Below are positions 36,410 to 53,348 of a stretch of 64,000 nucleotides of DNA, one piece after another. The stretch lies in contig NZ_JAATJG010000008.1 in assembly GCF_011927765.1 (NCBI RefSeq), forward strand, positions 62,001-126,000, read 5' to 3'. The notes under the pieces were generated by a model, which saw only the letters and a list, made by a program, of their open reading frames with translations, did not search any database and was not told the DNA's origin. The first letter of the stretch is position 1. Every line of letters starts with the position of its first letter. The position numbers were made by a program, and so were the translations under genes. The stretch is from Wenyingzhuangia aestuarii (GTDB lineage Bacteria; Bacteroidota; Bacteroidia; Flavobacteriales; Flavobacteriaceae).

Positions 36410-38791
36410 ATGTACATATTAAAAAGTCCAATAAGCAATAAAGAGTTACCTATCAAGATACATATAAGTTTTGAAAAAATTTATATGTATCTTGAAGAAA
36501 TAACCACTAACGCAGATCATATATTTTTTGACACAGCCAACAAGTTGTTACAAGAAATGAATGAATACCCTGTGTTAAGAGAGGGCTTTACGGACTTTTC
36601 TTTATTACATACCTATGAGAAACAAATACAAAAATTACTTTCTATTTTGTTTCCGGATTTACTACAAAGCAATGAAATAAAAGCAGCTTCTATTCCTTTT
36701 GACATGACTTCTTTTATGCTGTCTAAAAGATTTAAGTCTATTATAGATAATGCTGGTGATAATTTTGTTTTTGATATCAGAAACTTTGATAACGAAAACA
36801 TGTACATTATGACATGTATCTATATTTTAGCTTTTCATTACAATCGTCATATAGATTTTAAACGTCCATTTTTTTACGACATTCCAGATACAAAAACCAA
36901 CACTGTAAAAAGTTACAGAGCTTTGTACAATGCTGATTTTGCTTCTATTATTAAAACAGATACTGCTCCTGAATTATCAGAAGAAGATATACATCATTTA
37001 TTAAACAACTTTGAAAACATTGACGTTTGGAAAGAGAAATTCCCTCCTAACTCATATATTTTTAAAGGTTTTGGAATGATCAATCTTTTTGATGTTACTC
37101 AAGACGAAACCATTTCTAAAATAAAAAACACCTTTATAAAAAGAAACATTGATAGTATTGTTGAATTAGAAGATCAAATAAAAAAACTATTTAATCTCCC
37201 TAATTTAAAACTAGGTATTTCTATTTATAGCAAAAAGAAAGAAAGCCATATAAACTATATAAAACACAACAAAGAGCATAGTTTAATTACTAAAGACATT
37301 TGCTGTAGCCCAGAAAATCATTTCTGTAATGGTATTATAAATAGAGTATTTAATTCGTCTTTAATTACAGCAATTCCAGATTTAGAAGCTTATTTTAAAG
37401 AAGGAACAGCTACAGATAATGGTTTTTATAAAACAGTATCAGAACATAATCTGCAAAGTATTATTTTAGTACCTATAGAGGTAAATAGTGACTTTTTAGC
37501 CATTTTAGAACTAGCATCCCCTAACAAGTATGAGCTAAACTCTATAAACGCTAATAAATTAAAAGACATTTTACCCGTATTGAGTACTGCTTTAGAAAGA
37601 TCTGTTGATGAACGTCATAATTTATTAGAATCTGTAATTCAAGAAAACTACACCACTATTCATCCAAGTGTAAAATGGAAATTTTACAATGCTGCAGATG
37701 AGTATATTTATAACAATACACCAAACTCTAAGTTAAAAAACATTTCTTTTAAAAATGTGTATCCACTATATGGGCAGTGTGATGTTAAAGGTTCTTCTGA
37801 AGCAAGAAACAATGCTATTCAAGAAGATTTATCTTACCAATTGGATAAAACAATTGTGTTATTTGGAAAGGTATATGAAAAAGAAAAACTTAGTATTTAC
37901 AAAGAGATTATCTATCGTTTAAACAAAACGTTAAACTCCATTACAGATGGAATTAAAACTACAGACGAATTACAAGTTACAGCACTGTTAAAAAACGATA
38001 TTTATCCAATCTTAGAACATCTTAAAAAAACAAATCCTGAATTTATTGATATCATCACAAGTTATGAAAATGATATAGATCCTAATTTAAAGATTGTTTA
38101 TAAGAAACGTAAAGCCTACGAAGATTTTATTACTCATTTAAATACTAATCTTGCCAAACATTTAGATAAGGCTCAAAAAGAAGCACAGGCATTTTTCCCT
38201 CATTATTATGAGCGTTTTAAAACCGATGGACTAGATTACAACATGTACATAGGAGAAGCTATTACTAATACTAAAGAGTTTCATTCTATTTACATACAAA
38301 ACTTAAGACTTTGGCAGTTACAGCAACAATGTGAATTGGAATACATTGCTAAAGAAATAGATATTCAGCACAGCGATATTAGTTTACAAGTTACATCTCT
38401 TATTTTAGTACACTCCGTACCGTTAGACATTAAGTTTAGAATGGATGAGAAAAAATTTGATGTAGACGGAGCTTACAATATGCGATATGAAATTATCAAA
38501 AAAAGAATTGATAAATCATACATAAAAGGAACTAAAGAACGCTTAACACAGCCTGGTAAAATTGCCATTGTGTATACACACGAGCACGATTTAGCCGAAT
38601 ATTTAAAATATATAGCATACTTAAAAGAGCAAGAATACTTTACCGGAAATACTGAGTTTTTAGACGTTGAAGATTTACAAGGAGTATCTGGTTTAAAAGC
38701 CTTAAGAATTACTATTAATTACAATAAGAAAAATAAAGATGAATTATCTTTTCAGAAGTTAATGGAGATTGCTAAAATTAGCAGTCACTAA
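36410..38791 (+). CDS. Large GAF-domain-like protein of unknown function
   Basis: A 793-residue soluble protein, without signal peptide or membrane helix. Residues about 285-400 look like a GAF domain (ITAIPDLEAYFKEGT, LQSIILVPIEVNSDFLAILEL). The first 250 residues and the long helical C-terminal half match nothing I recognise. Similar GAF-containing proteins of this size occur in Flavobacteriia. The gene converges on the HD/Pycsar-like gene with a 4 bp overlap. A TATCTTCG box (36379-36386) is a candidate promoter. The function is unknown. Confidence 0.75.
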   Translation: MYILKSPISNKELPIKIHISFEKIYMYLEEITTNADHIFFDTANKLLQEMNEYPVLREGFTDFSLLHTYEKQIQKLLSILFPDLLQSNEIKAASIPFDMTSFMLSKRFKSIIDNAGDNFVFDIRNFDNENMYIMTCIYILAFHYNRHIDFKRPFFYDIPDTKTNTVKSYRALYNADFASIIKTDTAPELSEEDIHHLLNNFENIDVWKEKFPPNSYIFKGFGMINLFDVTQDETISKIKNTFIKRNIDSIVELEDQIKKLFNLPNLKLGISIYSKKKESHINYIKHNKEHSLITKDICCSPENHFCNGIINRVFNSSLITAIPDLEAYFKEGTATDNGFYKTVSEHNLQSIILVPIEVNSDFLAILELASPNKYELNSINANKLKDILPVLSTALERSVDERHNLLESVIQENYTTIHPSVKWKFYNAADEYIYNNTPNSKLKNISFKNVYPLYGQCDVKGSSEARNNAIQEDLSYQLDKTIVLFGKVYEKEKLSIYKEIIYRLNKTLNSITDGIKTTDELQVTALLKNDIYPILEHLKKTNPEFIDIITSYENDIDPNLKIVYKKRKAYEDFITHLNTNLAKHLDKAQKEAQAFFPHYYERFKTDGLDYNMYIGEAITNTKEFHSIYIQNLRLWQLQQQCELEYIAKEIDIQHSDISLQVTSLILVHSVPLDIKFRMDEKKFDVDGAYNMRYEIIKKRIDKSYIKGTKERLTQPGKIAIVYTHEHDLAEYLKYIAYLKEQEYFTGNTEFLDVEDLQGVSGLKALRITINYNKKNKDELSFQKLMEIAKISSH

Positions 38792-40005
38792 ATTCCTAAC
38801 TCTAAATTGTAAAAAGCAATTCCAAAAGCAATAACAGAAGCTATAATACCAACCATAAAAATAGTATATGTTACTCTTAACAATCTATATTTTCTAGCCA
38901 ACACAATCCCTAAAAAGTACAAATCTTTATTTAGGGATTTGTACAAATATTCTCTATCATCCATTAAAGTAAAAATTCCTTTATCAAAAACCTCTAAGGG
39001 CATTTTGTAAAAGTTTCCAAAGAATAACAAATTCACTTTTTTATTATCAATATCTTCTTGTGTAAATGTTCCAGATGTTACTTTGGGTCTTGTAGAAATT
39101 ATAGCAAAAATCATAGAAGTTACAGCAGTTAACAAAAATATTAACGTAGGAACTATTAAGTAATGATTGTCTGCTTTATCTAATTTTGGAAATAAATTAG
39201 ACAGGGCTAAAGACAAAATAATAGCATTTACACTTAATAAAATATTGGCTTTTGCATCTGCAATATCACTCAGTTTAATATGGTTCCTAAGCGTAACCCT
39301 GTACATGGTTTCAATGGTTTTATCAGCCTTTGTACTAGGTTTATTTTCTTTTTCTACAGATTTAGCTTTCTTTTTTTCTCTCTTTAACAAAGCCTCATCT
39401 TCTTTCTGAATGGCATTTTTTAATTTCTTTTCATTTGCGGCTAAATTAGATGCTTTCATGGCACTCCAATTTCTAAAAGCAAAGTCTGTATAAAATTTAT
39501 GAGCTCTTAAAAACTCCGAGTTGCATTGATACCATTCTACATCGGTCATTGTTTTTCCCTCCAACAACTCCCACTCTGCTCTTAATAATTTACTATCAGT
39601 CTCAAAAGAAGTAGTTGCTACATGAAACAAATCTGCATCACATATTATTCTTTCAATATCGTTTTTAGGTTCTTGAGGCATTTTTGTAGCCAAAATGCAA
39701 TTCACAACTTTCTCAATTTTTTCTTGAGGAAAATTGTGATCTTTTAAAAAAGGAATTACCTCATTTATACTAGCTTCTTCATGATTTTCACCACCGCGAG
39801 TATAACCAACATCGTGAAACCATGCTGCAATCAATACACATTCACTATCTTCGTCAGAAATTTGTTCTTCTTTTGTTAAGGTTTTAACCGCATCTACGAC
39901 ATCTTGTGTATGCGATATGCTATGATATATAGTGCCTGTAGGTAAATTGTGTTTTAAATAACTAACAACATATAATTCTGCAGATTCTATAATAGATGAG
40001 TCCAT
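38788..40005 (-). CDS. HD-domain hydrolase fused to a Pycsar-effector-like membrane domain (DUF5706)
   Basis: A 405-residue protein of two parts. Residues 1-190 are an HD phosphohydrolase with H32, H64-D65, H75 and D123/D125 (HTQDVVDA, AAWFHDVGYTRGG, ICDADLFH), the usual metal ligands of nucleotide phosphodiesterases. After a charged linker (200-232), residues 233-405 match the Pycsar effector membrane family: SDIADAKANILLSVNAIIL, then helices at about 254-272, 283-303 and 380-399. PycTM effectors respond to cCMP or cUMP and damage the membrane during phage infection. Here no nucleotide cyclase is adjacent, so a defence role is uncertain and housekeeping signalling is equally possible. Confidence 0.82.
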   Translation of the reverse strand: MDSSIIESAELYVVSYLKHNLPTGTIYHSISHTQDVVDAVKTLTKEEQISDEDSECVLIAAWFHDVGYTRGGENHEEASINEVIPFLKDHNFPQEKIEKVVNCILATKMPQEPKNDIERIICDADLFHVATTSFETDSKLLRAEWELLEGKTMTDVEWYQCNSEFLRAHKFYTDFAFRNWSAMKASNLAANEKKLKNAIQKEDEALLKREKKKAKSVEKENKPSTKADKTIETMYRVTLRNHIKLSDIADAKANILLSVNAIILSLALSNLFPKLDKADNHYLIVPTLIFLLTAVTSMIFAIISTRPKVTSGTFTQEDIDNKKVNLLFFGNFYKMPLEVFDKGIFTLMDDREYLYKSLNKDLYFLGIVLARKYRLLRVTYTIFMVGIIASVIAFGIAFYNLELGI

Positions 40006-40076: not shown

Positions 40077-43000
40077 ATGAAATTAATTTCTTTTAAAAAA
40101 TTCTATCCCTTCCTTTCTCTTTTATTTTTGATGAGTTGTGCCACTTATGAGAAACAAATATCTGAACAATTTAAAGATTGGAATGCCAACAAAACATCAT
40201 CAAAAGAGTTAAGTAATATTTATTTAATAGGCGATGCAGGTAATAGTCCCAACAGTAATAAAACCTTACAAGGTTTAGCAAAAGAACTTGCTAAAGAATC
40301 TAGTAATAGTAGCCTTATTTTTTTAGGAGACAACGTATACCCTAAAGGAATTTCTCCTAAAGATGGAAAAAAACAACAAGACGGAATTTCTAGATTAAAT
40401 GCACAATTAGACATCATAAAAGATTACAAAGGAAAAACTTTTTTTATCCCTGGAAATCACGATTGGTATTATGGACTTGATGGTCTTAAAAAACAAGAAA
40501 AATTAATAGAAGAAGCTTTAGGAAAAAACACATTTTTACCAGAAAACGGTTGTCCGTTAGAAGTGGTTCATTTAAACAAAGATGTAGATATTATTGTAAT
40601 AGACTCCCAATGGTTTATTACCGATTGGAACAAGCATCCTGAAATGAACGACAAATGTGACGAAATTAAAACTCGTGAAAAGTTTTTTGTAGAATTAGAA
40701 GGGCTCATCAATAAAAGTCAAAAAAAAATTACTTTGCTAGCCATTCATCACCCTATGGCAAGTAGAGGTACTCATGGAGGTCAAAATTCTTTTAAAGAAC
40801 ACATTTTTCCATTACCTGTTAATATTCCTTTACCTGGTTTAGGAAGCGTTTTTCAGGCTGTTAGAAAAACTAGTGGTTTAAGTCCACAAGATTTAAATGC
40901 CTACAGATATCATCAACTAACAGAAAGAGTTACTACGTTGGCTAAAGAACACCCTAATCTTATTTTTGTATCGGGACACGATCATAATTTACAATACTTG
41001 TTAAAAGATGGAATTCCACAAATTGTTAGTGGAGCAGGTTCTAAAACATCGCCTACTTACTTAGGTAAGGAACCAGGCTTTAGCTATGGAAAAAACGGAT
41101 ATGCAAAACTTAGTATTTATCCTAAAAAACAAGTTTCTGTTACTTTTAAAAACAACGACACTACCCTTTTTGAAACTACCATTTTTAAAGCCAAACAAGA
41201 AAAAAAAGAAAGTCCTTACGACAACCTAAACATTGCCCCATATAAAACTGCTGCTATTTATAGTAAAGAACTTACAGACAAAAGCAAAACTTACAAAGCT
41301 GTTTGGGGACATCATTACAGAAATGAATACAGTACACCTATAAAAGCCAAAACTGTTTTGTTAGACACTTTGTATGGTGGGTTAAAAGTGGTTAAAAAAG
41401 GAGGAGGACATCAATCTAAATCTTTACGTTTGGTAAATCCGCAAGGAAAACAATATGTAATGCGTGCCTTAAAAAAGAGTGCCGTTCGTTTTTTACAAAC
41501 GGTTGCTTTTAAAAATGACTATATCACCAACCAATTAAAAGATACCTATACCGAAAATATTTTATTTGATTTTTATACATCAGCACATCCATACACTCCA
41601 TTTATTATTGGTGATTTGTCCGATGCAGTTCAAGTATACCACACCAATCCAAAATTATTTTATGTTCCCAAACAAAAAAGGTTAATTCCTTTTGACGATG
41701 AGTTTGGAGATGCCTTATACATGATTGAAGAAAGACCCGAAGATGGACATACCAATCTGGCTTCTTTTGGTACTCCTGATGATATTATTAGTACTGATGA
41801 TTTATTTGCAGAACTTAGAGATAACAAAAACAACAAACTTGATGAGCATAATTATGTAACAGCTCGTTTGTTTGATATGATTTTAGGGGATTGGGATAGA
41901 CACGTAGACCAATGGAGATGGGCAGTTTTTAAAAACGGAAAACACAAAACTTTTAGACCTATTCCTAGAGATAGAGATCAGGCTTTTTCTAATTATGATG
42001 GAGCTTTATTAACCACTTTAACCACGCTTGTAGATCCTATTAAGTTGATGCAAACGTATAACAAAGACATTCGTAATTTATTTAAATTTAACGATGAACC
42101 CTACCCTATTGATGTTTCTCTTTTACAAGAAAGCACATATCAAATTTGGGAAGAACAGGCCAAATACATCAAACAAAACTTGACCGATGAAATCATCAAC
42201 AAAGCCTTTGATCAATTGCCAAATGCTGTTCAAAACAAAAATGTTGATAGAATTAAAGAAGTTCTAAAATACAGAAGAAATCATGTAGTTGAAATTGCTA
42301 CTGAGTATAGAAAAATTTTAGAAAAATTTGCCATTGTAAAAGGAAGTGATAAAGACGATTGGTTTGAAATAACTGCCAACAAAGAAAAAACAACCATTAA
42401 AGTTTTTAACATTAGTAATGGAGAAAAAGAAGATTTACATTTTGTTAAAGAGTTTAAGAACAAAAACACCAAAGAAATTTGGGTATATGGTTTAGATGAC
42501 GATGATTATTACCAAGTAAAAAACGTTCACAAAAAGAGTCCTAAAATTCGTTTAATTGGTGGGCAAAATCATGATACATATAACGTTACTAATGCAAAAA
42601 ACATTACTGTTCACGATTTTAAAACGCTTAAGAATACTTTTGAAGGTCGTTTTAAAAAACATTTAGTGGATCAGTACGACAAGAATACTTATGAATATAG
42701 AAAAGTAAAAGACAATACCTTAACCGTATTACCACTTATTGGTTATAACCCCGATGATGGCTTTAATTTTGGACCAAGCATTACCTATGCTCGTTACGGA
42801 TTCAATAGACAACCTTTTACCAATCAACATCACTTTAGTCTTAAATACTTTACAGCAACTACTGGTTTTGATTTTAAGCACAAAAGTGAATTTGCCACTT
42901 ATTCTAACTATTGGAATTTATTTGTAGAAACAAGATTAACTAGTTCTAATTTTAGCAATAACTTTTTTAATTTTGGGAACACCACAGTTAATAATGATGA

Positions 43001-43739
43001 TAGTTTTGGATTAGACTACAACAGAGTAAAATCTGAAATAAAAAGTATAGAACCAGGAATTACATGGAATAATTTAAGAGGAGCTAATTTTAACATTAGT
43101 ATTCCACTAACCGTTTATGAACTTGAAGAAACGGAAGGAAGATATTTAAACACACTTCCTATTGAATTTGATGAGCAAAATTTTGCAGGAATTAAAACTA
43201 GCTTTAATTACTCTAATTACGACAGTAAAGCACTAACAACCTTTGGTTTTGATTTTAATATAGCTACCGGATGGGATTATAATATTTCTAAAGAATCTTC
43301 TTTAGCTTACCTTAAAACTAATTTAGGAATGGTATTACCTATTTCTTTAAATCACAAATGGGTAGTTGCAAGTAAAATTCGCTCACAATTTAATTTTGGG
43401 GAAGATTTTCAATTGTATCAATCTGCGTTTATTGGAGGTAACAACGGATTAAGAGGTTTTAGAAACGAACGTTTTGCAGGAAAAAGTGCTTTTACACAAA
43501 ACTCAAACATTAGGTATACCATTAGCCAAGTTAAAACTCCTATTCTACCTGTTACTTACGGACTTAGTTTAGGATATGATTATGGTAGAGTTTGGTTCCC
43601 TAACGAAGAATCTGACAGATGGCATACTTCTTACGGAACTACTTTATGGTTTAGCGCACCTTTGGCAATGTTAAATTTTAACTTATTTAATAGTATAGAA
43701 GGTCCAAGATTTACGTTTGGTGTTGGGGTAAATTGGTAA
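40077..43739 (+). CDS. Lipoprotein with metallophosphoesterase, kinase-like region and Omp85-type barrel
   Basis: A 1220-residue outer-membrane protein. The signal peptide ends in a lipobox (FLMSC, C21). Residues about 48-335 form a calcineurin-like metallophosphoesterase with D53 (GDAGN), D85 (GDNVYP), N127-H128 (GNHDW), AIHHPM and GHDHN. Residues about 435-720 carry motifs reminiscent of atypical protein kinases: KGGGHQSKSLRL with YVMRALKK, then GDWDRHVDQWRW (604-615) and RDRDQAF (631-637). Residues about 890-1220 look like an Omp85/BamA-type barrel, with GLRGF and a final aromatic strand. The phosphatase and barrel calls are firm. The kinase-like part is my inference from spacing and motifs. 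The target is unknown. Confidence 0.78.
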   Translation: MKLISFKKFYPFLSLLFLMSCATYEKQISEQFKDWNANKTSSKELSNIYLIGDAGNSPNSNKTLQGLAKELAKESSNSSLIFLGDNVYPKGISPKDGKKQQDGISRLNAQLDIIKDYKGKTFFIPGNHDWYYGLDGLKKQEKLIEEALGKNTFLPENGCPLEVVHLNKDVDIIVIDSQWFITDWNKHPEMNDKCDEIKTREKFFVELEGLINKSQKKITLLAIHHPMASRGTHGGQNSFKEHIFPLPVNIPLPGLGSVFQAVRKTSGLSPQDLNAYRYHQLTERVTTLAKEHPNLIFVSGHDHNLQYLLKDGIPQIVSGAGSKTSPTYLGKEPGFSYGKNGYAKLSIYPKKQVSVTFKNNDTTLFETTIFKAKQEKKESPYDNLNIAPYKTAAIYSKELTDKSKTYKAVWGHHYRNEYSTPIKAKTVLLDTLYGGLKVVKKGGGHQSKSLRLVNPQGKQYVMRALKKSAVRFLQTVAFKNDYITNQLKDTYTENILFDFYTSAHPYTPFIIGDLSDAVQVYHTNPKLFYVPKQKRLIPFDDEFGDALYMIEERPEDGHTNLASFGTPDDIISTDDLFAELRDNKNNKLDEHNYVTARLFDMILGDWDRHVDQWRWAVFKNGKHKTFRPIPRDRDQAFSNYDGALLTTLTTLVDPIKLMQTYNKDIRNLFKFNDEPYPIDVSLLQESTYQIWEEQAKYIKQNLTDEIINKAFDQLPNAVQNKNVDRIKEVLKYRRNHVVEIATEYRKILEKFAIVKGSDKDDWFEITANKEKTTIKVFNISNGEKEDLHFVKEFKNKNTKEIWVYGLDDDDYYQVKNVHKKSPKIRLIGGQNHDTYNVTNAKNITVHDFKTLKNTFEGRFKKHLVDQYDKNTYEYRKVKDNTLTVLPLIGYNPDDGFNFGPSITYARYGFNRQPFTNQHHFSLKYFTATTGFDFKHKSEFATYSNYWNLFVETRLTSSNFSNNFFNFGNTTVNNDDSFGLDYNRVKSEIKSIEPGITWNNLRGANFNISIPLTVYELEETEGRYLNTLPIEFDEQNFAGIKTSFNYSNYDSKALTTFGFDFNIATGWDYNISKESSLAYLKTNLGMVLPISLNHKWVVASKIRSQFNFGEDFQLYQSAFIGGNNGLRGFRNERFAGKSAFTQNSNIRYTISQVKTPILPVTYGLSLGYDYGRVWFPNEESDRWHTSYGTTLWFSAPLAMLNFNLFNSIEGPRFTFGVGVNW

Positions 43740-45494: not shown

Positions 45495-45633
45495 AGCTTT
45501 TAGGTTTCTAATTTAGAGATATAAAACAAACTTAATAGAAAACAGTGCAATTGGGCAACATATATAAAAATTATTTAAGGGCTTTAATTACAAATAACAA
45601 TAAATACCATTGCTCCTAAACCAACAAGTTACA

Positions 45634-47010
45634 TTAATCTGCTACATAAGAACTTACTGCTGAATTTCTTGTTGAACAAAAATCTTTAAGTTCTTCTACT
45701 TCGGATGTAAATCCGCTTGTACCTCCACTTAAACTTGTATAATTAGAATTTTCACTAGTTGCAGATGAATAGATTAAATTCTGGTACGTAGTATAAGTAG
45801 CACTCATACTTGCTGGAATGTAATAATTATCGTTAAAATCTTTTAAATAGGCTTTATAATCTTCTTTATAAGAATCTACATTAATTAAATAAGAAATTAA
45901 AGGCCAACTAGAACTTACTTCACTCATAGCCAAAGAAACGGCTCCTCTATTTCCTTGTCCACTACTAAAAGCTTCGTTATTATCCCAAACAATCCATTTG
46001 ATTAAATCATCTGCTGGATCGTGATACAAATAATAGTTATGACTCATATTTCCATATGTATCCCAATTTTGAATGGTGTTATTTACTGCTAAATATTTTA
46101 AGAATCCTTGTACATCAAAAACACTTTCTAAGTTGCTTTTCCACGTTGCCTCATCGGTAGTTCGTAAAGAAGAATGTAAAACATTATACAACTCCTGAAT
46201 ATCAGACCAATCTGCTGCTGCTTCATTTGTTTTTTTCTCAAAATTACTTAAACTAAATCCGCTTGAAGCAAACTGTGCTCCATCACCATCGGGTTTGTAA
46301 CAATTACCTGTATTGCTCCCAAATACAGAAGTTAACATGGTATCAAAAACCACTTCATCTAAGGTGTACAATCCATAATAAACAGGAGTTCCCGTTCCCT
46401 GATCTACATATACTTCATAAAACGCAGTTTGTACAGCAGGCACCCCAAAAGCAGTAAACAAATCTGTTGCCGATTTTTCTCTCATAAAAGAGTTATCATT
46501 ATAATTACTCCCTAACGACAAATCTTTAAATCCATAAAATCTTTGATCTTTAATTTCGGGATATTCATCTTCAAATTTATCAAACTTTAATCGCAAAGGT
46601 AATTTCCCATTCCCACTATTGTAAGCAGAATACAAGCTAGAATTTCCTTTATATCTTACTCCTACTTCGTACCACTGTGTTCCATTAAAATAAAAATCGC
46701 AAGCAACGTATTCTGGAGTTTCTGTTGTAAAATCATTCCCTCTATTTTGAGAAGCTAATGATGCTAAATTAGATCGCATGCTAGAATATTCACTAGAACT
46801 TAAAACAATGTCTATTCTATTAACCTGATCTTGAGGAAAAACCACAGAATAGTCTATTCCAGATTCATCTGTATGTGTTTCTAAACTCCAATCTGTTAAT
46901 CCCTCTCCTTGATTTACAATTACCTCTTCTATTTCAATAGTTTCTCTACAAGATACCATTGCTAGAATTAGGATAGCAAGAGTGATGATATTTATGTGTC
47001 TTATTTTCAT
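45634..47010 (-). CDS. CotH-type kinase lipoprotein, copy B
   Basis: A 458-residue lipoprotein (lipobox AMVSC, C21). CotH proteins are atypical protein kinases, known best from Bacillus spore coats. Signatures are VGVRYKGNSS, KLPLRLKFDKF, GLYTLDEVVFD, a catalytic-loop-like NWDTYG (D317), and the metal-site motif WDNNEAF (D343). The protein should sit in the envelope on the periplasmic or outer face. It ends the cassette DUF4956-DUF2490-CotH, 6 bp after the barrel gene. The copy at 50459-51829 is very similar. Substrates are unknown. Confidence 0.9.
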   Translation of the reverse strand: MKIRHINIITLAILILAMVSCRETIEIEEVIVNQGEGLTDWSLETHTDESGIDYSVVFPQDQVNRIDIVLSSSEYSSMRSNLASLASQNRGNDFTTETPEYVACDFYFNGTQWYEVGVRYKGNSSLYSAYNSGNGKLPLRLKFDKFEDEYPEIKDQRFYGFKDLSLGSNYNDNSFMREKSATDLFTAFGVPAVQTAFYEVYVDQGTGTPVYYGLYTLDEVVFDTMLTSVFGSNTGNCYKPDGDGAQFASSGFSLSNFEKKTNEAAADWSDIQELYNVLHSSLRTTDEATWKSNLESVFDVQGFLKYLAVNNTIQNWDTYGNMSHNYYLYHDPADDLIKWIVWDNNEAFSSGQGNRGAVSLAMSEVSSSWPLISYLINVDSYKEDYKAYLKDFNDNYYIPASMSATYTTYQNLIYSSATSENSNYTSLSGGTSGFTSEVEELKDFCSTRNSAVSSYVAD

Positions 47011-47016
47011 GAAATT

Positions 47017-47694
47017 TTAGTTTAAGTTGTATGTATATTTTACTCCTATAATGTTAGTTGCCTTTGGATACGTTGTGTTTAACTCTTTATCAAACCTATA
47101 GTAAACTCCCATTTTTGCAGATTTATGCACTTTAAAAGATGTTCCTAATGTTAGTCTATACCCATCAAGCTGATTCTCTGATTCTGCTCCAACAGAACGG
47201 AATAATTCTCCTGATAATTCTGGATCTAGCTTCCATTTTTTAATATTATAATCTACGGCTGCTTTAAATCGGAAATATTGTTTTGCCTCATTGTTAATAT
47301 TGAGTTCATTTTTGTTTTGATAACGAACTCTATATTTAAAACTAAAATCGCTAAGCTTGTGCTTGTATTGTCCGTCTAAGTGATATCTAAAATGATTTTC
47401 ATAACCTTGTACATTTCCTGTATTATCATTATTCTTTATGTAACGGATGGCTCCACCAAATTCAAAATGTTTAAATGGAGAATATTCTAAATCTAACTGA
47501 CCAAAATATTGATTTACTTCTGAGCTGTTATTTTCTAACCTCAACTGCCCTTGTAATGCCACAGTCCATTTTTTATTGATTTTATATTTTAAATTTAAAC
47601 TAGACCACGTTTCCAAATCTCTAGTTACCAGAGTTTCTTGTCCATAACTCCATACAGAAGTTAATAACATTATTGTTGCAAAAAATATCCTCAT
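47017..47694 (-). CDS. DUF2490-type outer-membrane barrel protein, copy B
   Basis: A 225-residue protein when started at the ATG 47694, which gives a clean signal peptide (MRIFFATIMLLTSVWSYGQ). The longer frame from 47715 would overlap the preceding gene and prefix MKINKTT. The paralogue at 51.8-52.5 kb supports the shorter form. The body alternates aromatic and polar residues in short beta-strands (DLETWSSLNLKYKINKKWTVALQGQLRL, GVKYTYNLN at the end), typical of a small DUF2490 barrel. It lies between the DUF4956 and CotH genes with spacings of 7 and 6 bp, so it is translated with them. Confidence 0.82.
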   Translation of the reverse strand: MRIFFATIMLLTSVWSYGQETLVTRDLETWSSLNLKYKINKKWTVALQGQLRLENNSSEVNQYFGQLDLEYSPFKHFEFGGAIRYIKNNDNTGNVQGYENHFRYHLDGQYKHKLSDFSFKYRVRYQNKNELNINNEAKQYFRFKAAVDYNIKKWKLDPELSGELFRSVGAESENQLDGYRLTLGTSFKVHKSAKMGVYYRFDKELNTTYPKATNIIGVKYTYNLN

Positions 47695-47701
47695 TGTTGT
47701 T

Positions 47702-48301
47702 TTATTTATTTTCATAGTATATAATCATGTTGGCACGTTTTCTTTTGTAGTCTACCTCTTCTATTTTTACTTTATCTATATTAAATCCTGTTTTATTTTT
47801 TAAGTCGGCCTTTAAAAGGAAATCGTTTTCAGGTTTTAAATTTTCTAGTATATCATATACTATTTTTCTAGATATCTGATGTTTTAAGCCCCAAAACCAT
47901 TCGGTAAGTGATAATACTAGGATGATTAATAAATTTGCAGAAAACACTTCTACATAACTCATTTTTTTATTCGCTAACGAGTTTATTACAGACACTCCAA
48001 TAACCACAAATAGATAGGTCATTTCTTTAATATCTATAGAATTGGTTCTGTATCTTATAATTCCAAAAATGGCAAATAACCCTAAAGCCATTCCTAAGTC
48101 TAGTTCAAACTTCTTTAGGGTAAAGCATAAAAAGAAAACAATTACACTAATCATGTAATAAGTAAAAAAATACTCTTTATTTCTTGCTCTTTTGTAGTAC
48201 AAGCATCTTATGATAATTGTTAAAAAGCTAATGTTGATACAAAACCTAAAAAGCATTTTGTAAAAATCATCATCAAAAATTGGGATTCCGTAAATTTCCA
48301 T
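47702..48301 (-). CDS. DUF4956 membrane protein, copy B
   Basis: A 199-residue inner-membrane protein with about four helices in the first 140 residues and a soluble C terminus (KVKIEEVDYKRKRANMIIYY). I choose the ATG at 48301 (MEIYGIPIFDDDF) rather than 48328, because the paralogue starts with the same sequence. A 76-residue block (from NKEYFF to NKKMSY) is identical to copy A. DUF4956 proteins are often found with CotH and VTC-type polyphosphate polymerase genes. No VTC gene is present here. Confidence 0.87.
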   Translation of the reverse strand: MEIYGIPIFDDDFYKMLFRFCINISFLTIIIRCLYYKRARNKEYFFTYYMISVIVFFLCFTLKKFELDLGMALGLFAIFGIIRYRTNSIDIKEMTYLFVVIGVSVINSLANKKMSYVEVFSANLLIILVLSLTEWFWGLKHQISRKIVYDILENLKPENDFLLKADLKNKTGFNIDKVKIEEVDYKRKRANMIIYYENK

Positions 48302-48426
48302 TAAGGTTCTTTTGTTAGTTGTGTGCAACTTGTTCTATATATTAAACAAACAACCCTTTAAATACCCTAGTAAAATTTTACAATAAATTAACTACAACTT
48401 TGCAGAAACACCCTATTAAACAAGAA

Positions 48427-48469
48427 ATGAGCAAATTAACAAACAAAACATGTTTATCAATTTGCTCAT
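48427..48469. terminator. Hairpin between the LRR gene and the second cassette
   Basis: An 11 bp stem (ATGAGCAAATT / AATTTGCTCAT) around a 21-nt loop. On the minus strand only a weak T-rich stretch follows, so it may be a leaky terminator or an mRNA-stabilising element between the surface protein and cassette B. Confidence 0.45.
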
Positions 48470-48513
48470 AAAAAAAGATGAACAAGAAGTATTGTATGTG
48501 TAAAATCTATAAT

Positions 48514-50442
48514 TTATTCAACATACATTTTTGTTAAAACTGTATTCCCTAAATTATCTTTGGCTATTACAATATAAATTCCATCTAAATTTTGATTAGA
48601 AACCTGTTGTCCTTTGGTATTATATATACTAAGAGATACATATTTTTCTAGATTGTTTGTTATTGATCCGTTATTAGAATTTAGCAACAAACCTGGTATT
48701 TGATTACTTGTAGTATCTATTAACTTGCTTCCTTCTGTTATTGTTTTAAAGCCTTGCCAATAAGATTGATTGTAGGCATAAAAAGTATCAACAGGTATAT
48801 TTAAATCTATCTCGTTTTTATTTGTAAATAAATCATTGTATTCAAAAGGATTAGAGCTTTCTGAAACAACAGTGGTTATAGGGTTGTTGTTAAATGCTAA
48901 ATAGTCAATATTTTTTACATTTTCTGGAATGGTAATATTGGTTAAATTATTACTGTTAAATGCAGAAATACCAATAGTTTCTACAGCACTACCAATTGTT
49001 AATGTTTGAATATTGTTATTGTAAAAAGCAAGGTTAGAAATGGTAGTTACACTATTAGGTATAACAATATTTGTTAGGTTGTTACTGTGAAAAGCATAAG
49101 AACCAATAGTTTCTACAGCATTCCCAATTGTTACATTTTCTAAGCTATTATTATAAAAAGCTGCATTGGCAATAACTTCTACATTATCTGGAATTACAAT
49201 ACTTGTTAAAGCATTGTCCGAAAAAGCTTCGTTTCCTATATAATTAACTTTAAAAGACATATCAACATTCGTTAAATTATTCCCTTTAAAAGCATAAGAA
49301 TCTATTGTGTAAACGTTGTCTGGAATATTTATACTGATTAAATTATTGTCAGAAAAAGAATCGTAACCTATTAAATTTAAACCGCTTGGTAACACTACAC
49401 TTGATAGATTTTTGTTTTTAAATACAGATGCCCCTATTTCGGTTACCGTATATGTAATTTCATCGTGAATTATTTCATTAGGAAGAACTAGATCTGTACT
49501 GTTTCCAAAGTATTTTTCTATTTTAACATATCTATCACTCACATTTACAATAGAGTATTCAATATTATCAACCACAAAGGCTTCTAGTTCAATTGGCTTT
49601 CCATTTATTGTACCAAAATCTATCCAACCTGCATTTGTATAGGTGTCTAAAGTATTATCTGGTATTGTTAAATTGATATCAAAATTGTTGTCAAATGTGT
49701 CTGATGGCAAAGTAGCCGGGCTTGTACTTAACGAGTTTACATTAACAATAGAGTTGTATAAAAAAACTCCCTCTCCAATAAAAGATACACTAGAACCCAG
49801 AGTAACACTTTCTATATTATTACTAGAAAACGCATTTTTTGCTATGCTTACTACCTTGTTAGGAATAACTACTTGAGTGATGGAATTGTTGTTAAAAGCA
49901 GCTTCTCCTATATCTTCTAAATTAGCTCCCAAAACAAGTGTTTCTAGAGAGTTACTAATAAAAGCATAGTCCCCTATAGTTATTACATTATCTGGTATTG
50001 TTACACTGGTTAAAGAATTATTTGCAAACGCTGATTTTCCAATAAACGTAACACTTTCTGGAAGGGCTACATTGGTTAAAGAATTATTAGAAAAGGCATC
50101 GGATTCTATTCTAAGAACTCCATTTGAAATTGTTAATGATGTTAGTTGATTGCTAGAAAATGCTCCAGATTCTATTAAATTAACTGTACCTGGAATACTT
50201 ACACTTATTAAAGAATTTTCATAAAAAGCTCCATTCTTAATTTTTGTAACCTGATACGTATCATCCTCATTATTTACCGTGTTAGGAATCTCTATTGTTG
50301 TATCGCTTCCCTCATAATCTCTAACTTCTACTTCTCCAGTACTAATAACACCATACTGAATATTATTTACTGTAAATATTTGAGCGTTTGACAGGTAACT
50401 ATTAAGTAATAAACTCAATACTAATAGTAGTTTTATTTTCAT
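48514..50442 (-). CDS. BspA-type leucine-rich repeat surface protein with T9SS-like tail
   Basis: A 642-residue exported protein with signal peptide MKIKLLLVLSLLLNSYLSNA. It has two blocks of about 23-residue LRR_5 repeats (pattern NNSLTSVTIPDNVITIGDYAF), each introduced by a similar header: FTVNNIQYGVIS near residue 23, and FVVDNIEYSIVN near residue 287. The C terminus resembles a short type IX sorting domain (VSLSIYNTKGQQVSNQNL, TKMYVE). BspA-type proteins bind other proteins or surfaces. The gene lies 16 bp downstream of CotH copy A in the same operon, so it may be a partner or substrate of the CotH kinases; that is inference. Confidence 0.85.
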   Translation of the reverse strand: MKIKLLLVLSLLLNSYLSNAQIFTVNNIQYGVISTGEVEVRDYEGSDTTIEIPNTVNNEDDTYQVTKIKNGAFYENSLISVSIPGTVNLIESGAFSSNQLTSLTISNGVLRIESDAFSNNSLTNVALPESVTFIGKSAFANNSLTSVTIPDNVITIGDYAFISNSLETLVLGANLEDIGEAAFNNNSITQVVIPNKVVSIAKNAFSSNNIESVTLGSSVSFIGEGVFLYNSIVNVNSLSTSPATLPSDTFDNNFDINLTIPDNTLDTYTNAGWIDFGTINGKPIELEAFVVDNIEYSIVNVSDRYVKIEKYFGNSTDLVLPNEIIHDEITYTVTEIGASVFKNKNLSSVVLPSGLNLIGYDSFSDNNLISINIPDNVYTIDSYAFKGNNLTNVDMSFKVNYIGNEAFSDNALTSIVIPDNVEVIANAAFYNNSLENVTIGNAVETIGSYAFHSNNLTNIVIPNSVTTISNLAFYNNNIQTLTIGSAVETIGISAFNSNNLTNITIPENVKNIDYLAFNNNPITTVVSESSNPFEYNDLFTNKNEIDLNIPVDTFYAYNQSYWQGFKTITEGSKLIDTTSNQIPGLLLNSNNGSITNNLEKYVSLSIYNTKGQQVSNQNLDGIYIVIAKDNLGNTVLTKMYVE

Positions 50443-50458
50443 AATTTACGCTTAGTTA

Positions 50459-51829
50459 TTAATTAGTTAAATACGACGTTACAGCTTCATTCCTAGAAAC
50501 ACAAAAGTTTTTCATGGTTTGGATAGCTGTATCAAAATCATCAGAACCCACAAACAAACTTGTATATTCTGAACTTTCTGACGATACGCTAGGTAAAATT
50601 AAATTGTAATAATTGTCGAATATGGAATTCATTCTTGTTGGGTTGTAATAATTATCTACAAAATCTTTTAAATAGGTTTTGTAATCCGCCTCATAAGCAT
50701 CTACATCCATTAAAAACGAAATCAATGCCCAATCATCACTTACTTCATCCATACCTAAAGACAAAGCTTGTAATTGAGCAGAACCACTTAAAAAAGCTTC
50801 GTTATTATCCCAAACAATCCATTTGATCAATCCATCTGCAGGATCGTTATACAGAAAATAATTATGTCTCATATTTCCGTACGTATCCCAGTTTTGTATA
50901 GTATTGTTTACAGCTAAATATTTTAAAAAACCTTGTACATCAAAAACACTCTCTAAATTGGTTTTCCAAGTTTCAACATCGGTAGTTCTTAAAGGAGAAT
51001 GTAATACATTGTATAATTCTTGAATATCTGACCAATCGGCTAGTTCTTCATTTGTTTTTTTCTCAAAATCTTCCAAATTAAATTCATTGGCAGAAAACAT
51101 AGAACCTCTTCCTTCTGGTTTGTAACAATTTCCTGTATTACTACCAAAAACAGACGACAACATGGTATCAAACACCACCTCATCTAAAGTATACAATCCA
51201 TAATACACAGGGTCTCCTGTACCCTGATCTACATATACTTCATAAAAAGCTGTTTGTACTGCGGGTACACCAAAATCTCTAAACAATTCTGTTGCTGTTT
51301 TCTCTCTCATATAAGAAGCATCGTTGTAATTACTTCCTAAAGACAAATCTTGAAAACCATAAAATCGTTGGTTTTTAATTTCAGAGAATTCATCTTCAAA
51401 AACATCAAACTTAAGTCTTAAAGGTAACTTACCATTCCCATTATTATAAGCACCAAACAAGCTTGAATTTCCTTTATATCTAATTCCTACATGGTACCAT
51501 TGATGACCGTTAAAATAAAAATCGCAAGGAGCATAAATAGGTTTCTCATCCGAAAAAACATCGGGTCCTTCTGCAGCAGTAATTAAACTTGCCAAATTAG
51601 ACCTCATATTTTTATACTCTTCTTTAGAAAAAACAATATCAACTCTATTTACTTTATTTTCAGGAAAAATAACATCATAATTAACTCCCTCTAAATCTGT
51701 ATGAGTTTCCATAGTCCACTCCTTAATATCTTTATTAGGAACAATTTCTACTTCTCTACACGATACTACTAACAGTACTATGATTAAAACCAATAATACA
51801 GGTTGAGTATTTTTAATTCTTATATTCAT
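50459..51829 (-). CDS. CotH-type kinase lipoprotein, copy A
   Basis: A 456-residue paralogue of the gene at 45634-47010, with the same motifs: VGIRYKGNSS, GLYTLDEVVFD, NWDTYG and WDNNEAF. The lipobox is LLVVSC. The two proteins are nearly identical through the catalytic part and differ more in the N-terminal 100 residues and C-terminal 100 residues. It is third in cassette A, 6 bp after the DUF2490 gene and 16 bp before the leucine-rich repeat gene. Confidence 0.9.
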   Translation of the reverse strand: MNIRIKNTQPVLLVLIIVLLVVSCREVEIVPNKDIKEWTMETHTDLEGVNYDVIFPENKVNRVDIVFSKEEYKNMRSNLASLITAAEGPDVFSDEKPIYAPCDFYFNGHQWYHVGIRYKGNSSLFGAYNNGNGKLPLRLKFDVFEDEFSEIKNQRFYGFQDLSLGSNYNDASYMREKTATELFRDFGVPAVQTAFYEVYVDQGTGDPVYYGLYTLDEVVFDTMLSSVFGSNTGNCYKPEGRGSMFSANEFNLEDFEKKTNEELADWSDIQELYNVLHSPLRTTDVETWKTNLESVFDVQGFLKYLAVNNTIQNWDTYGNMRHNYFLYNDPADGLIKWIVWDNNEAFLSGSAQLQALSLGMDEVSDDWALISFLMDVDAYEADYKTYLKDFVDNYYNPTRMNSIFDNYYNLILPSVSSESSEYTSLFVGSDDFDTAIQTMKNFCVSRNEAVTSYLTN

Positions 51830-51835
51830 AATTGT

Positions 51836-52516
51836 TTATTTAAGACTGTAAGTATATTTAACCCCAACAATATTTGTTGTTAATGGGTAATCTGTATTTA
51901 CTTCCTGATCGTATCTATAAAAAAGTTTCATTTTAGCAGACTTGTGTACTTTAAAAGTAGTACCAAAAGTAATTCTATAACTTTCTAATTGATGATTTAC
52001 ATTGGCTCCTGCAGAACGAAATAGTTCTCCTGACAACTCGGGATCAAACTTCCATTTTTTTATGTTATAAACAGCTTCTGTTTTAAAACGGATTGTTTGT
52101 TTTGATTCATCTTCAACCTCTAATTCGTTTCTAGTTTGATAACGAACTCTATATTTTAAATCTAAATTATTTAGTTTGTGCTTGTAGGTTCCGTCTATAT
52201 GATATCTTAAGTAATCTTCGTATCCTTGAATTTTACCTGTATGATCATTCTTTTTTATATAACGTAATGCTCCCGAAACTTCAAAATGTTTAGAAAAGCT
52301 ATACTCTACATCAAACTGTCCAAAGTATTGATTTACCTCTGAACTATTAGTATCTAACCTTAATTGCCCCTGTAAAGCTACAGACCACTTTTTGTTGATT
52401 TTGTATTTTAAATTTATACTTGACCATGTTTCTAGATCTCTAACAACTAGTGTGTCTTGACCATAGGTTACCACAGATATTAAAAACATTCCTATCAATA
52501 AAAACTTGTTTAGCAT
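51836..52516 (-). CDS. DUF2490-type outer-membrane barrel protein, copy A
   Basis: A paralogue of the gene at 47017-47694. The longest frame begins at 52579 inside the DUF4956 gene. The ATG at 52516 gives a normal signal peptide (MLNKFLLIGMFLISVVTYGQ) and a 4 bp gap, so I use it (226 residues). The body (DLETWSSINLKYKINKKWSVAL, VGVKYTYSLK) is a small barrel like copy B. Confidence 0.82.
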   Translation of the reverse strand: MLNKFLLIGMFLISVVTYGQDTLVVRDLETWSSINLKYKINKKWSVALQGQLRLDTNSSEVNQYFGQFDVEYSFSKHFEVSGALRYIKKNDHTGKIQGYEDYLRYHIDGTYKHKLNNLDLKYRVRYQTRNELEVEDESKQTIRFKTEAVYNIKKWKFDPELSGELFRSAGANVNHQLESYRITFGTTFKVHKSAKMKLFYRYDQEVNTDYPLTTNIVGVKYTYSLK

Positions 52517-52520
52517 TGCC

Positions 52521-53120
52521 TTATTTATTTTCGTAGTAAATGGTAATGTTTGCAAATTTTCTTCTAAAGTTAACTTCATGAATTTTTATTTTCTCAATAC
52601 TTAGACCTGTTTTTTCCTCTAAATCGTCCTTTAATAGTTGATAATTTTCTGGTTTTAAATTTTCTAAAACTTCGTAAGTAATTTTTCTAGATACTTGATG
52701 TTTTAAACTCCAAAACCACTCCGTCAACCATAAAACTAAAATAATCAGTAAGTTAGCCATAAACAATTCCAGATAACTCATTTTTTTATTTGCCAAAGAA
52801 TTAATTACAGAAACCCCAATTACTACAAATAAATAGGTCATTTCCTTAATATCAATAGAGTTGGTTCTATATCGTATAATTCCAAAAATAGCAAACAGCC
52901 CTAGAGCCATACCTAGGTCTAATTCAAACTTTTTAAGAGTAAAACACAAAAAGAATACAATTACACTAATCATGTAATAGGTAAAAAAATATTCTTTGTT
53001 TTTGGCTTTTTTATAGTAAAGTCCCCTAATAATAATAGTTAGAAAACTGATATTGATACAAAATTTAAAAAGCATTTTGTAAAAATCATCATCAAAAATA
53101 GGCATGTTATATATTTCCAT
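52521..53120 (-). CDS. DUF4956 membrane protein, copy A
   Basis: A 199-residue inner-membrane protein, first gene of cassette A and of the whole seven-gene minus-strand run. The membrane core is identical over 76 residues to copy B, while DNA differs at many synonymous sites there. The C-terminal soluble part has diverged (KIKIHEVNFRRKFANITIYY). The 244 bp region upstream shows no clear TAnnTTTG box. Confidence 0.87.
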   Translation of the reverse strand: MEIYNMPIFDDDFYKMLFKFCINISFLTIIIRGLYYKKAKNKEYFFTYYMISVIVFFLCFTLKKFELDLGMALGLFAIFGIIRYRTNSIDIKEMTYLFVVIGVSVINSLANKKMSYLELFMANLLIILVLWLTEWFWSLKHQVSRKITYEVLENLKPENYQLLKDDLEEKTGLSIEKIKIHEVNFRRKFANITIYYENK

Positions 53121-53304
53121 ATTATTTATTCAGGTATGTAAATAGGTGTGTTTCTATATTTTATGCAAAAATGAGGAAAAAAAAATGGAATTTTACTATA
53201 AAAACGCAGTAGATTAAACTTAACGCTACCTAACACCATAGCTACAAACCTATTACAGCTAGTTAGGTTTGTTATTTTTCTATAGTTTACAAAGACCCCT
53301 CTAT

Positions 53305-53348
53305 AAAACAAACAAGACATTTCTACATAGAAATGTCTTGTTTGTTTT
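53305..53348 (-). terminator. Terminator of the sigma-factor operon
   Basis: A 21 bp perfect stem (AAAACAAACAAGACATTTCTA and complement) with a 2-nt gap, effectively a 4-6 nt loop. It lies 17 bp after the O-methyltransferase stop. It separates this operon from the DUF4956 cassette. Confidence 0.8.

Follow-up and report, generated by a model that had tools for sequence, protein, structure and literature searches.

What does a large outer-membrane protein of Wenyingzhuangia aestuarii, annotated as a phosphatase and a barrel alone, carry in its middle third? The protein is encoded at 40077–43739 (+) of a 64,000-nucleotide stretch (positions 62,001 to 126,000 of contig NZ_JAATJG010000008.1, assembly GCF_011927765.1; henceforth the window) by an open reading frame (ORF) with an ATG start and 1220 codons. 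From the N- to the C-terminus it consists of a lipobox, a purple-acid-phosphatase-like domain, a middle domain and an Omp85 barrel. Pfam recognised only Metallophos (residues 48–241, E 9.9e-7, above cut-off) and NCBIfam only an Omp85 match below cut-off; no family of either collection reached its cut-off in the middle third. Structure prediction indicates that this middle part, residues ~423–750, almost certainly has a kinase-like fold, so that an intact-looking kinase would lie inside the protein. The reading we favour, with reasonable though limited confidence, is of a lipid-anchored outer-membrane protein in which a phosphatase resembling tartrate-resistant acid phosphatase (TRAP) and a kinase of the type of CotH, HipA and the phosphatidylinositol 4-kinases (PI4K) form opposed enzymes on one chain. 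The parts of the protein are as follows.

40077–40139 (+), lipoprotein signal peptide and lipobox ...LFLMSC, Cys21 codon at 40137–40139 (from sequence)
40200–41219 (+), TRAP-like metallophosphoesterase domain, residues ~42–381 (Pfam, profile, five blocks)
41343–42326 (+), kinase-like domain, residues ~423–750 (AlphaFold2, Foldseek, VIA-align, conserved catalytic set)
41400–41414 (+), glycine-rich loop GGGHQ, residues 442–446, at the β1/β2 junction (conservation, secondary structure)
41475–41477 (+), K467 at the end of β3, the VAIK-lysine position (conservation, strand in model)
41568–41570 (+), D498 in an αC-like helix (conservation, helix in model)
41886–41921 (+), putative catalytic loop GDWDRHVDQWRW, residues 604–615 (conservation, profile alignments in register with CotH and HipA)
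41967–41987 (+), putative metal-binding (DFG-equivalent) loop RDRDQAF, residues 631–637 (conservation, alignment with CotH IPxDxDxxF)
42327–42665 (+), β-rich linker from the kinase-like domain to the barrel, residues ~751–863 (AlphaFold2 secondary structure)
42711–43736 (+), Omp85-type β-barrel, residues ~879–1220, with LRGF at 1125–1128 (Foldseek, NCBIfam below cut-off)

The lipobox, the phosphoesterase set, the glycine-rich stretch, K467, the motifs at 604 and 631–637 and the LRGF element had been picked out in a preliminary description of this DNA and were all found at these residues. Residues 391–818, aligned with 65 named relatives of 47–72% identity, were modelled with AlphaFold2 (protein numbering is model numbering plus 390). 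The model had a mean predicted local distance difference test score (pLDDT) of 89.9 and a predicted template-modelling score of 0.89, and its weakest stretch was model residues 81–100 (block means 53–55). In the model, β1 (437–441) is followed by the glycine loop (442–446), β2 (447–453) and β3 (459–467), which ends at K467. Helices including 491–500, which holds D498, follow together with β4 (526–530) and β5 (546–552), and are succeeded by a long helix (590–603), the GDWDRHVDQ loop (604–612), strands 613–620 and 623–630, and the D632-R-D634 loop. As modelled, the order of these elements is that of a protein kinase.

Foldseek comparison of the model with the PDB returned nine chains at E ≤ 0.001, namely six of CtkA (best value 8.2e-6), two of Bacillus cereus CotH (6.2e-4 and 8.7e-4) and MSMEG_1954, which we take to be a kinase-like protein; the template-modelling scores were modest (0.23–0.37 on the query). 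The top structures by VIA-align were PI4K-IIβ (Z 14.9, root-mean-square deviation 4.8, 262 residues aligned) and CotH 5jd9 (Z 14.7, deviation 4.1, 255 aligned), followed further down by CtkA (13.6), Vps34 (11.7), HipA (11.5) and Fam20A (10.3). All 50 rows listed, with Z from 14.9 to 10.2, were kinase-fold structures, nearly all of them recognisable by title, and covered mostly model residues 5–360. Without a clear match the best Z by this method is typically 7 to 8, but it was 14 for five mostly helical models; the 391–818 model is of mixed composition. Rows within 1 Z of each other are tied, and therefore PI4K-II and CotH are not separable by structure.

The predicted model shows the bilobal kinase fold of the atypical protein kinase-like superfamily, and the glycine loop, the β3 lysine, the catalytic Asp and the metal-binding Asp occupy their kinase places as judged by conservation and model secondary structure. 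Comparison with CotH, Fam20 and HipA structures thus came out kinase-like, and the two motifs that had been likened to those of atypical kinases fall on the catalytic and metal-binding loops of the model. By this model, the middle domain would have the fold of the CotH/HipA/PI4K group of atypical kinases.

Conservation was assessed across 95 sequences from loci L001–L090, the window's own among them. The glycine loop is retained in most of these (G442 in 84, G443 in 85, G444 in 78), as are R463 (83), K467 (88), D498 (88) and E551 (89). Within the catalytic loop, D605 is kept in 90 sequences, W606 in 88, D607 in 85, R608 in 90, H609 in 79, Q612 in 86 and W613 in 93; the metal loop retains D632 in 85, R633 in 83, D634 in 83 and F637 in 82, and G642 is found in all 95. 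The four aspartates at 605, 607, 632 and 634, on which the proposed likeness to kinases had depended, are therefore well conserved in homologues. D607 is likely the catalytic base, and D498 is a possible salt-bridge partner of K467. D607 and D632 are spaced 25 residues apart; passages of PMC7821199 give inactivating changes in Bacillus CotH at D228 and D251, a spacing of 23.

The same 95 sequences were assigned to layout classes by length and then checked with the phosphatase profile, which matched 47/47 proteins of the longest layout and 0/48 of the others. That layout, with phosphatase, kinase-like domain and barrel, comprises 47 sequences of 1198–1340 residues, and a kinase-like domain with a barrel makes up 33 (818–1028 residues), a count that includes L041, a protein whose gene begins close to the end of a contig and whose N-terminal part may be missing. 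The remainder are eight kinase-like lipoproteins or exported proteins (498–570 residues), five N-terminally membrane-anchored kinase-like forms (423–425 residues) and two degenerate 693-residue forms. By eye, the N-termini inspected are mostly export-signal- or anchor-like. K467, D607 and D632 are all intact in 47/47 phosphatase-fused, 22/33 kinase-plus-barrel, 6/8 exported, 5/5 anchored and 0/2 693-residue proteins. We judge the kinase domain to be probably catalytically active in the phosphatase-fused class.

Several features of individual layouts were also recorded. The five anchored forms (L031–L035) all end in C-F-x-C (CFDC or CFEC), perhaps a metal or disulfide site. Stand-alone kinase-like proteins stand in tandem at L036 (two) and L039 (three), which suggests local duplication. 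A subfamily at L065, L066, L068 and L087 keeps K467, D605, D607 and R608 but aligns an R with D632 and a Y with D634; on sequence grounds, this shared loss of the metal-binding Asp is possibly the mark of a pseudokinase branch.

A careful tree was built from 93 rows, with the degenerate L085 and L086 excluded; seven branches are long and some placements are unsure. Layouts are grouped strongly on this tree, with 10 changes where shuffling gave a mean of 38.1. Phosphatase presence requires 8 changes, and therefore a history of one gain is not shown.

Whole-genome sampling covered the Bacteroidota, in which the middle domain was matched at E ≤ 0.001 in 112/296 sampled genomes and 61/140 genera. 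When 198 genomes of the class were searched with a profile, 18 matches at E ≤ 1e-6 were obtained, and the 3.53 Mb, 43-contig assembly that holds the ORF contains a single match. Five of 72,556 plasmid records were positive (Hymenobacter, Persicobacter, Parabacteroides). At least 594 stretches were detected by a contig scan, 590 of which were confirmed, and the best 80 loci were taken.

Relations of the middle domain at the sequence level were examined by profile–profile comparison against 36 controls, unrelated family alignments made from neighbouring genes. Whole CotH proteins ranked first (score 41.6 over 189 columns, E 3.3e-4) and the CotH domain set second (30.4), ahead of the best control (24.3). 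SelO, presumably itself kinase-like, was among the controls and scored 16.5. In the alignment, GDWD lies opposite CotH g-WD and PIPRDRDQAF opposite CotH IPyDyDntF. The CotH half of the proposed likeness to CotH and HipA thus held at the profile level.

Membership in the established families was rejected. Neither the window protein nor its middle segment matched CotH (PF08757) or HipA_C (HipA, PF07804) at E ≤ 1, and the window protein gave no match to Fam20C (PF06702) at that threshold either; of 60 members, one matched CotH (E 0.017) and one Fam20C (E 9.3e-4). A Fam20C search of 99 genomes yielded two weak matches and none above cut-off. Identity with the Lani_1194 kinase family of Flavobacteriales was set aside by description, as PMC9758233 gives 94% of its members as joined to a methyltransferase. 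Judged by its sequence, the window's middle domain appears to represent a CotH-like family outside the Pfam and NCBIfam definitions.

The phosphatase half was assigned by signature and profile. Purple acid phosphatases carry five metal-ligand blocks, D / GDxxY / GNH(D/E) / xxxH / GHxH, and all five are present in the window protein as GDAG (52–55), GDNVY (84–88), GNHD (126–129), AIHHP (222–226) and GHDH (300–303). The best PDB matches of the phosphatase profile (A4) were human tartrate-resistant acid phosphatase (4.3e-13) and then GAP50 (2.3e-7), and residues ~42–381 are accordingly described here as a predicted TRAP-like phosphatase. The blocks were also counted in 95 class-1 relatives, a different set from the 95 sequences of L001–L090: all five were found in 89/95 class-1 relatives by a loose rule (the H block being loose) and in 43/47 fused proteins of L001–L090 by a stricter one.

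The preliminary description had also placed an Omp85-like barrel at the C-terminus, and this was supported by a full-length model (residues 21–1220; pLDDT 85.5, predicted template-modelling score 0.82) that matched BamA (2.5e-11), TamA (1.7e-10) and GAP50 (1.2e-8) in Foldseek. The NCBIfam match to Omp85_fam (NF047779) had an E-value of 1.9e-12 and 47.4 bits, under the 200-bit cut-off. An element of the form [VILM]RG[FYN] lies within the last 220 residues of 117/130 long relatives, and the window's LRGF begins at 1125. The BamA/TamA-type barrel and the RGF/Y motif are those of the Omp85 superfamily, and PF00149 N-terminal to an Omp85 barrel (by model), with no POTRA family in the Pfam scan, corresponds to its 'Metallo' subfamily.

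Barrels of the BamA type have their N-terminal side in the periplasm. In the window protein Cys21 is followed by ATYEK, which holds one acidic residue. The lipobox rule recognised 67/95 class-1 relatives; positions +2 to +6 hold no acidic residue in 58 of these and a single one in the other nine. By contrast, a SusD-like lipoprotein of the same window (our assignment) has CQDDF. Because the lipid anchor lacks an acidic surface-export signal, the phosphatase and kinase-like domains are probably on the periplasmic side. Surface lipoproteins of Bacteroidota carry K-(D/E)2, SDDDD or SDDFE according to passages of PMC5080379. Surface exposure, which had been proposed for this protein, is thus disfavoured by the sequence of its anchor.

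Neighbouring genes were compared at 60 loci with fetched flanks (L031–L090) and at 80 named loci; the counts are raw, without a matched control, and related genomes are not independent. The divergent neighbour at 38788–40005 (-) encodes an HD-domain protein with a C-terminal PycTM (Pycsar effector) part, a family found near the gene at 62/80 named loci and 22/60 of L031–L090. An SdiA-regulated/phytase-like propeller was encoded near the gene at 56/80 and 17/60, respectively; the neighbour clusters c2 and SdiA proved to be one family (hhalign 98.7%, E 3.1e-16), and by eye the members sampled resemble lipoproteins. At the closely related loci L037 and L038, the gene for a stand-alone kinase-like lipoprotein is directly adjoined, in the same orientation, by one that the phosphatase profile matches (E ~3e-13 and ~6e-13); one further separate phosphatase ORF is present at L101, in a locus with a fused gene.

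Further along, 36410–38791 (+) encodes a 793-residue protein with no Pfam family above cut-off and a weak GAF match in one relative; its family lies near the gene at 49/80 named loci and 5/60 of L031–L090. A gene that we take from its sequence to be SelO-like, often with MsrA, lies near 13/78 phosphatase-fused named loci and 1/17 phosphatase-fused loci of L031–L090 (examples are L074, L129, L139, L140 and L158).

The two CotH genes noted earlier within 10 kb are indeed present: they lie 1.9 and 6.7 kb downstream and match Pfam CotH at E 2.3e-63 and 1.8e-60. Their block (~45,496–53,328) is absent from the closest, otherwise collinear relative L091, in which the alignment jumps from window position 45,496 to 53,328 with 43 bases between, and CotH lies near the gene at 0/80 named loci and 4/60 of L031–L090. 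They therefore provide no evidence of linkage, and that idea was rejected. At 45634–53120 (-), a DUF2490/DUF4956/CotH cassette occurs in two near-copies, one on either side of a BspA-type leucine-rich-repeat protein (48514–50442); DUF2490 was scanned in one of the two copies.

In the mechanism proposed for the favoured pair of opposed enzymes, the barrel, joined through the short β linker, would hold the kinase against the outer membrane on its inner side. The kinase domain would bind a nucleotide and transfer phosphate to an envelope protein or lipid near the membrane, and the phosphatase would reverse this transfer or clear its products, as a writer–eraser pair. The proposal is favoured by the separate phosphatase gene beside a stand-alone kinase-like lipoprotein at L037 and L038 and by phosphate-related neighbours at L031–L090 (PPK1, SixA-type and PAP2 genes). 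Neighbourhood alone suggests the SdiA-regulated/phytase-like β-propeller protein as a candidate partner and, in clades other than that of the window, the polyphosphate kinase system, PPK1 being encoded near the gene at 9/60 of L031–L090 (six family codes). That both domains act on one substrate is a tentative proposal, which we consider somewhat doubtful. The widest version, in which a phylum-wide, hitherto unrecognised family of periplasmic kinases is an outer-membrane single-chain writer–eraser for reversible envelope phosphorylation, possibly with a donor other than cytosolic adenosine triphosphate (ATP) such as polyphosphate, is speculative and unlikely as it stands. If the proposal holds, one envelope molecule could both add and remove phosphate. 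An active kinase would raise the questions of what is phosphorylated in an ATP-poor compartment and from which donor, and of why 47/47 phosphatase-fused copies keep K467, D607 and D632.

A number of results weigh against this interpretation. At least one of K467, D607 and D632 is missing in 11/33 kinase-plus-barrel proteins, in 2/8 of the shorter proteins and in 2/2 of the 693-residue proteins. Four of the 47 fused proteins (L072, L073, L079 and L084) lack several phosphatase blocks and keep the kinase set; their phosphatase half may be dead, as far as sequence can tell, and the kinase–phosphatase pairing is therefore not always functional. The HH-suite probability for CotH was 38% (whole proteins) and 11% (domain set), and the suggested likeness to HipA failed at the profile level, its score of 20.4 lying inside the control range with three controls higher. 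PPK1 occurs near the gene at 0/80 named loci, and a link to polyphosphate therefore does not extend to the clade of the window. Additionally, a shared fold is no proof of kinase activity: the related folds of SelO and SidJ serve other chemistry.

The best-surviving alternative is a variant in substrate, in which the domain phosphorylates an outer-membrane lipid, lipopolysaccharide, a glycan or an inositol-like small molecule and the phosphatase acts on the same pool. The top VIA-align row, PI4K-II, would fit such a role, as would a barrel and lipid anchor that keep the domain at the membrane and the PAP2-family genes near 8/60 of L031–L090 and 21/80 named loci. However, the tie with CotH makes substrate type unreadable from structure, and the sequence profile resembles CotH, a protein kinase; we regard this variant as rather unlikely.

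A pseudokinase, in which the fold is kept as a nucleotide sensor or scaffold controlling the phosphatase or the barrel without phosphate transfer, is less probable still. ATP is scarce outside the cytosol, and degenerate copies are frequent among the proteins that lack the phosphatase. Within the phosphatase-fused class, however, the three catalytic residues are invariably kept, and strong retention of the glycine loop, D498, R608 and Q612 would be needless for a pure scaffold.

We give a similarly low probability to phosphate scavenging, in which the TRAP-like domain would liberate phosphate from organic compounds or polyphosphate, and nucleotide or polyphosphate would be bound by the kinase-like domain as a substrate rather than for signalling. 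Among L031–L090, besides PPK1, PAP2 and the phytase-like propeller, a SixA-type phosphatase was encoded near the gene at 9/60 loci and a phosphate-selective-porin-type protein at 3/60. PPK1, the SixA-type and the porin-type genes are absent from all 80 named loci, however, and the kinase-like domain is also found in proteins lacking the phosphatase and in proteins lacking the barrel.

Lastly, chance likeness of two short motifs in an unrelated linker fold, for which the weak database record could be cited (among 25 of 42 families listed, no Pfam family at E ≤ 1 in more than two of 60 members, the best kinase value being that of Fam20C; one irrelevant NCBIfam match among members; and, when PDB sequences were searched directly with the profile, a match to the DRH loop of CtkA at E 0.25, ranked behind one non-kinase), is rejected as highly improbable by the structure comparison, element order, conservation and first rank of CotH against 36 controls.

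The closest described proteins are those of the Omp85 'Metallo' subfamily of Heinz and Lithgow 2014 (PMC4104836), reported there among POTRA-less architectures with PF00149 and an Omp85 barrel. The window protein shares this combination and the lack of POTRA. It differs in its kinase-like middle, since section 10 of that paper names no middle domain and its main text no kinase, and in that the kinase-like domain of its family also occurs without the phosphatase. PF00149 is called a metalloprotease in passages of the same paper, which suggests proteolysis for these proteins; the present reading would give them a quite different chemistry. In the titles and abstract openings returned by searches of the open-licence literature, no kinase-like domain is named in any Omp85 protein, and a term search of main texts on BAM and TamL of Bacteroidota gave no mention of kinase, phosphatase or phosphoesterase. 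The phosphatase-plus-barrel fusion is thus already known, and a kinase fold fixed at the outer membrane beside a phosphatase appears undescribed within those titles and abstract openings.

Compared with TRAP and GAP50, the phosphatase domain shares the GDxxY, GNHD and GHxH blocks and the profile matches, but is bacterial, lipid-anchored and the N-terminal part of a three-domain envelope protein. CotH (PF08757; PDB 5jd9, 5jda) has the same kinase-like fold, with its WD catalytic and IPxDxDxxF metal loops in register, and differs in its 12% identity; the window protein has a DRH loop like that of CtkA and is fused to a phosphatase and a barrel. CtkA of Helicobacter pylori gave the best Foldseek rows and its catalytic loop aligns with this DRH loop, as the loop of HipA/HipT aligns with the window's catalytic loop, at identities of only 9–11% (CtkA rows) and 8–13% (HipA rows). 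To our knowledge, neither CtkA nor HipA is joined to a phosphatase or barrel. The type II PI 4-kinases (Z 13.6–14.9) and Fam20A (10.3) share the predicted fold; these and Fam20C are eukaryotic enzymes with other substrates.

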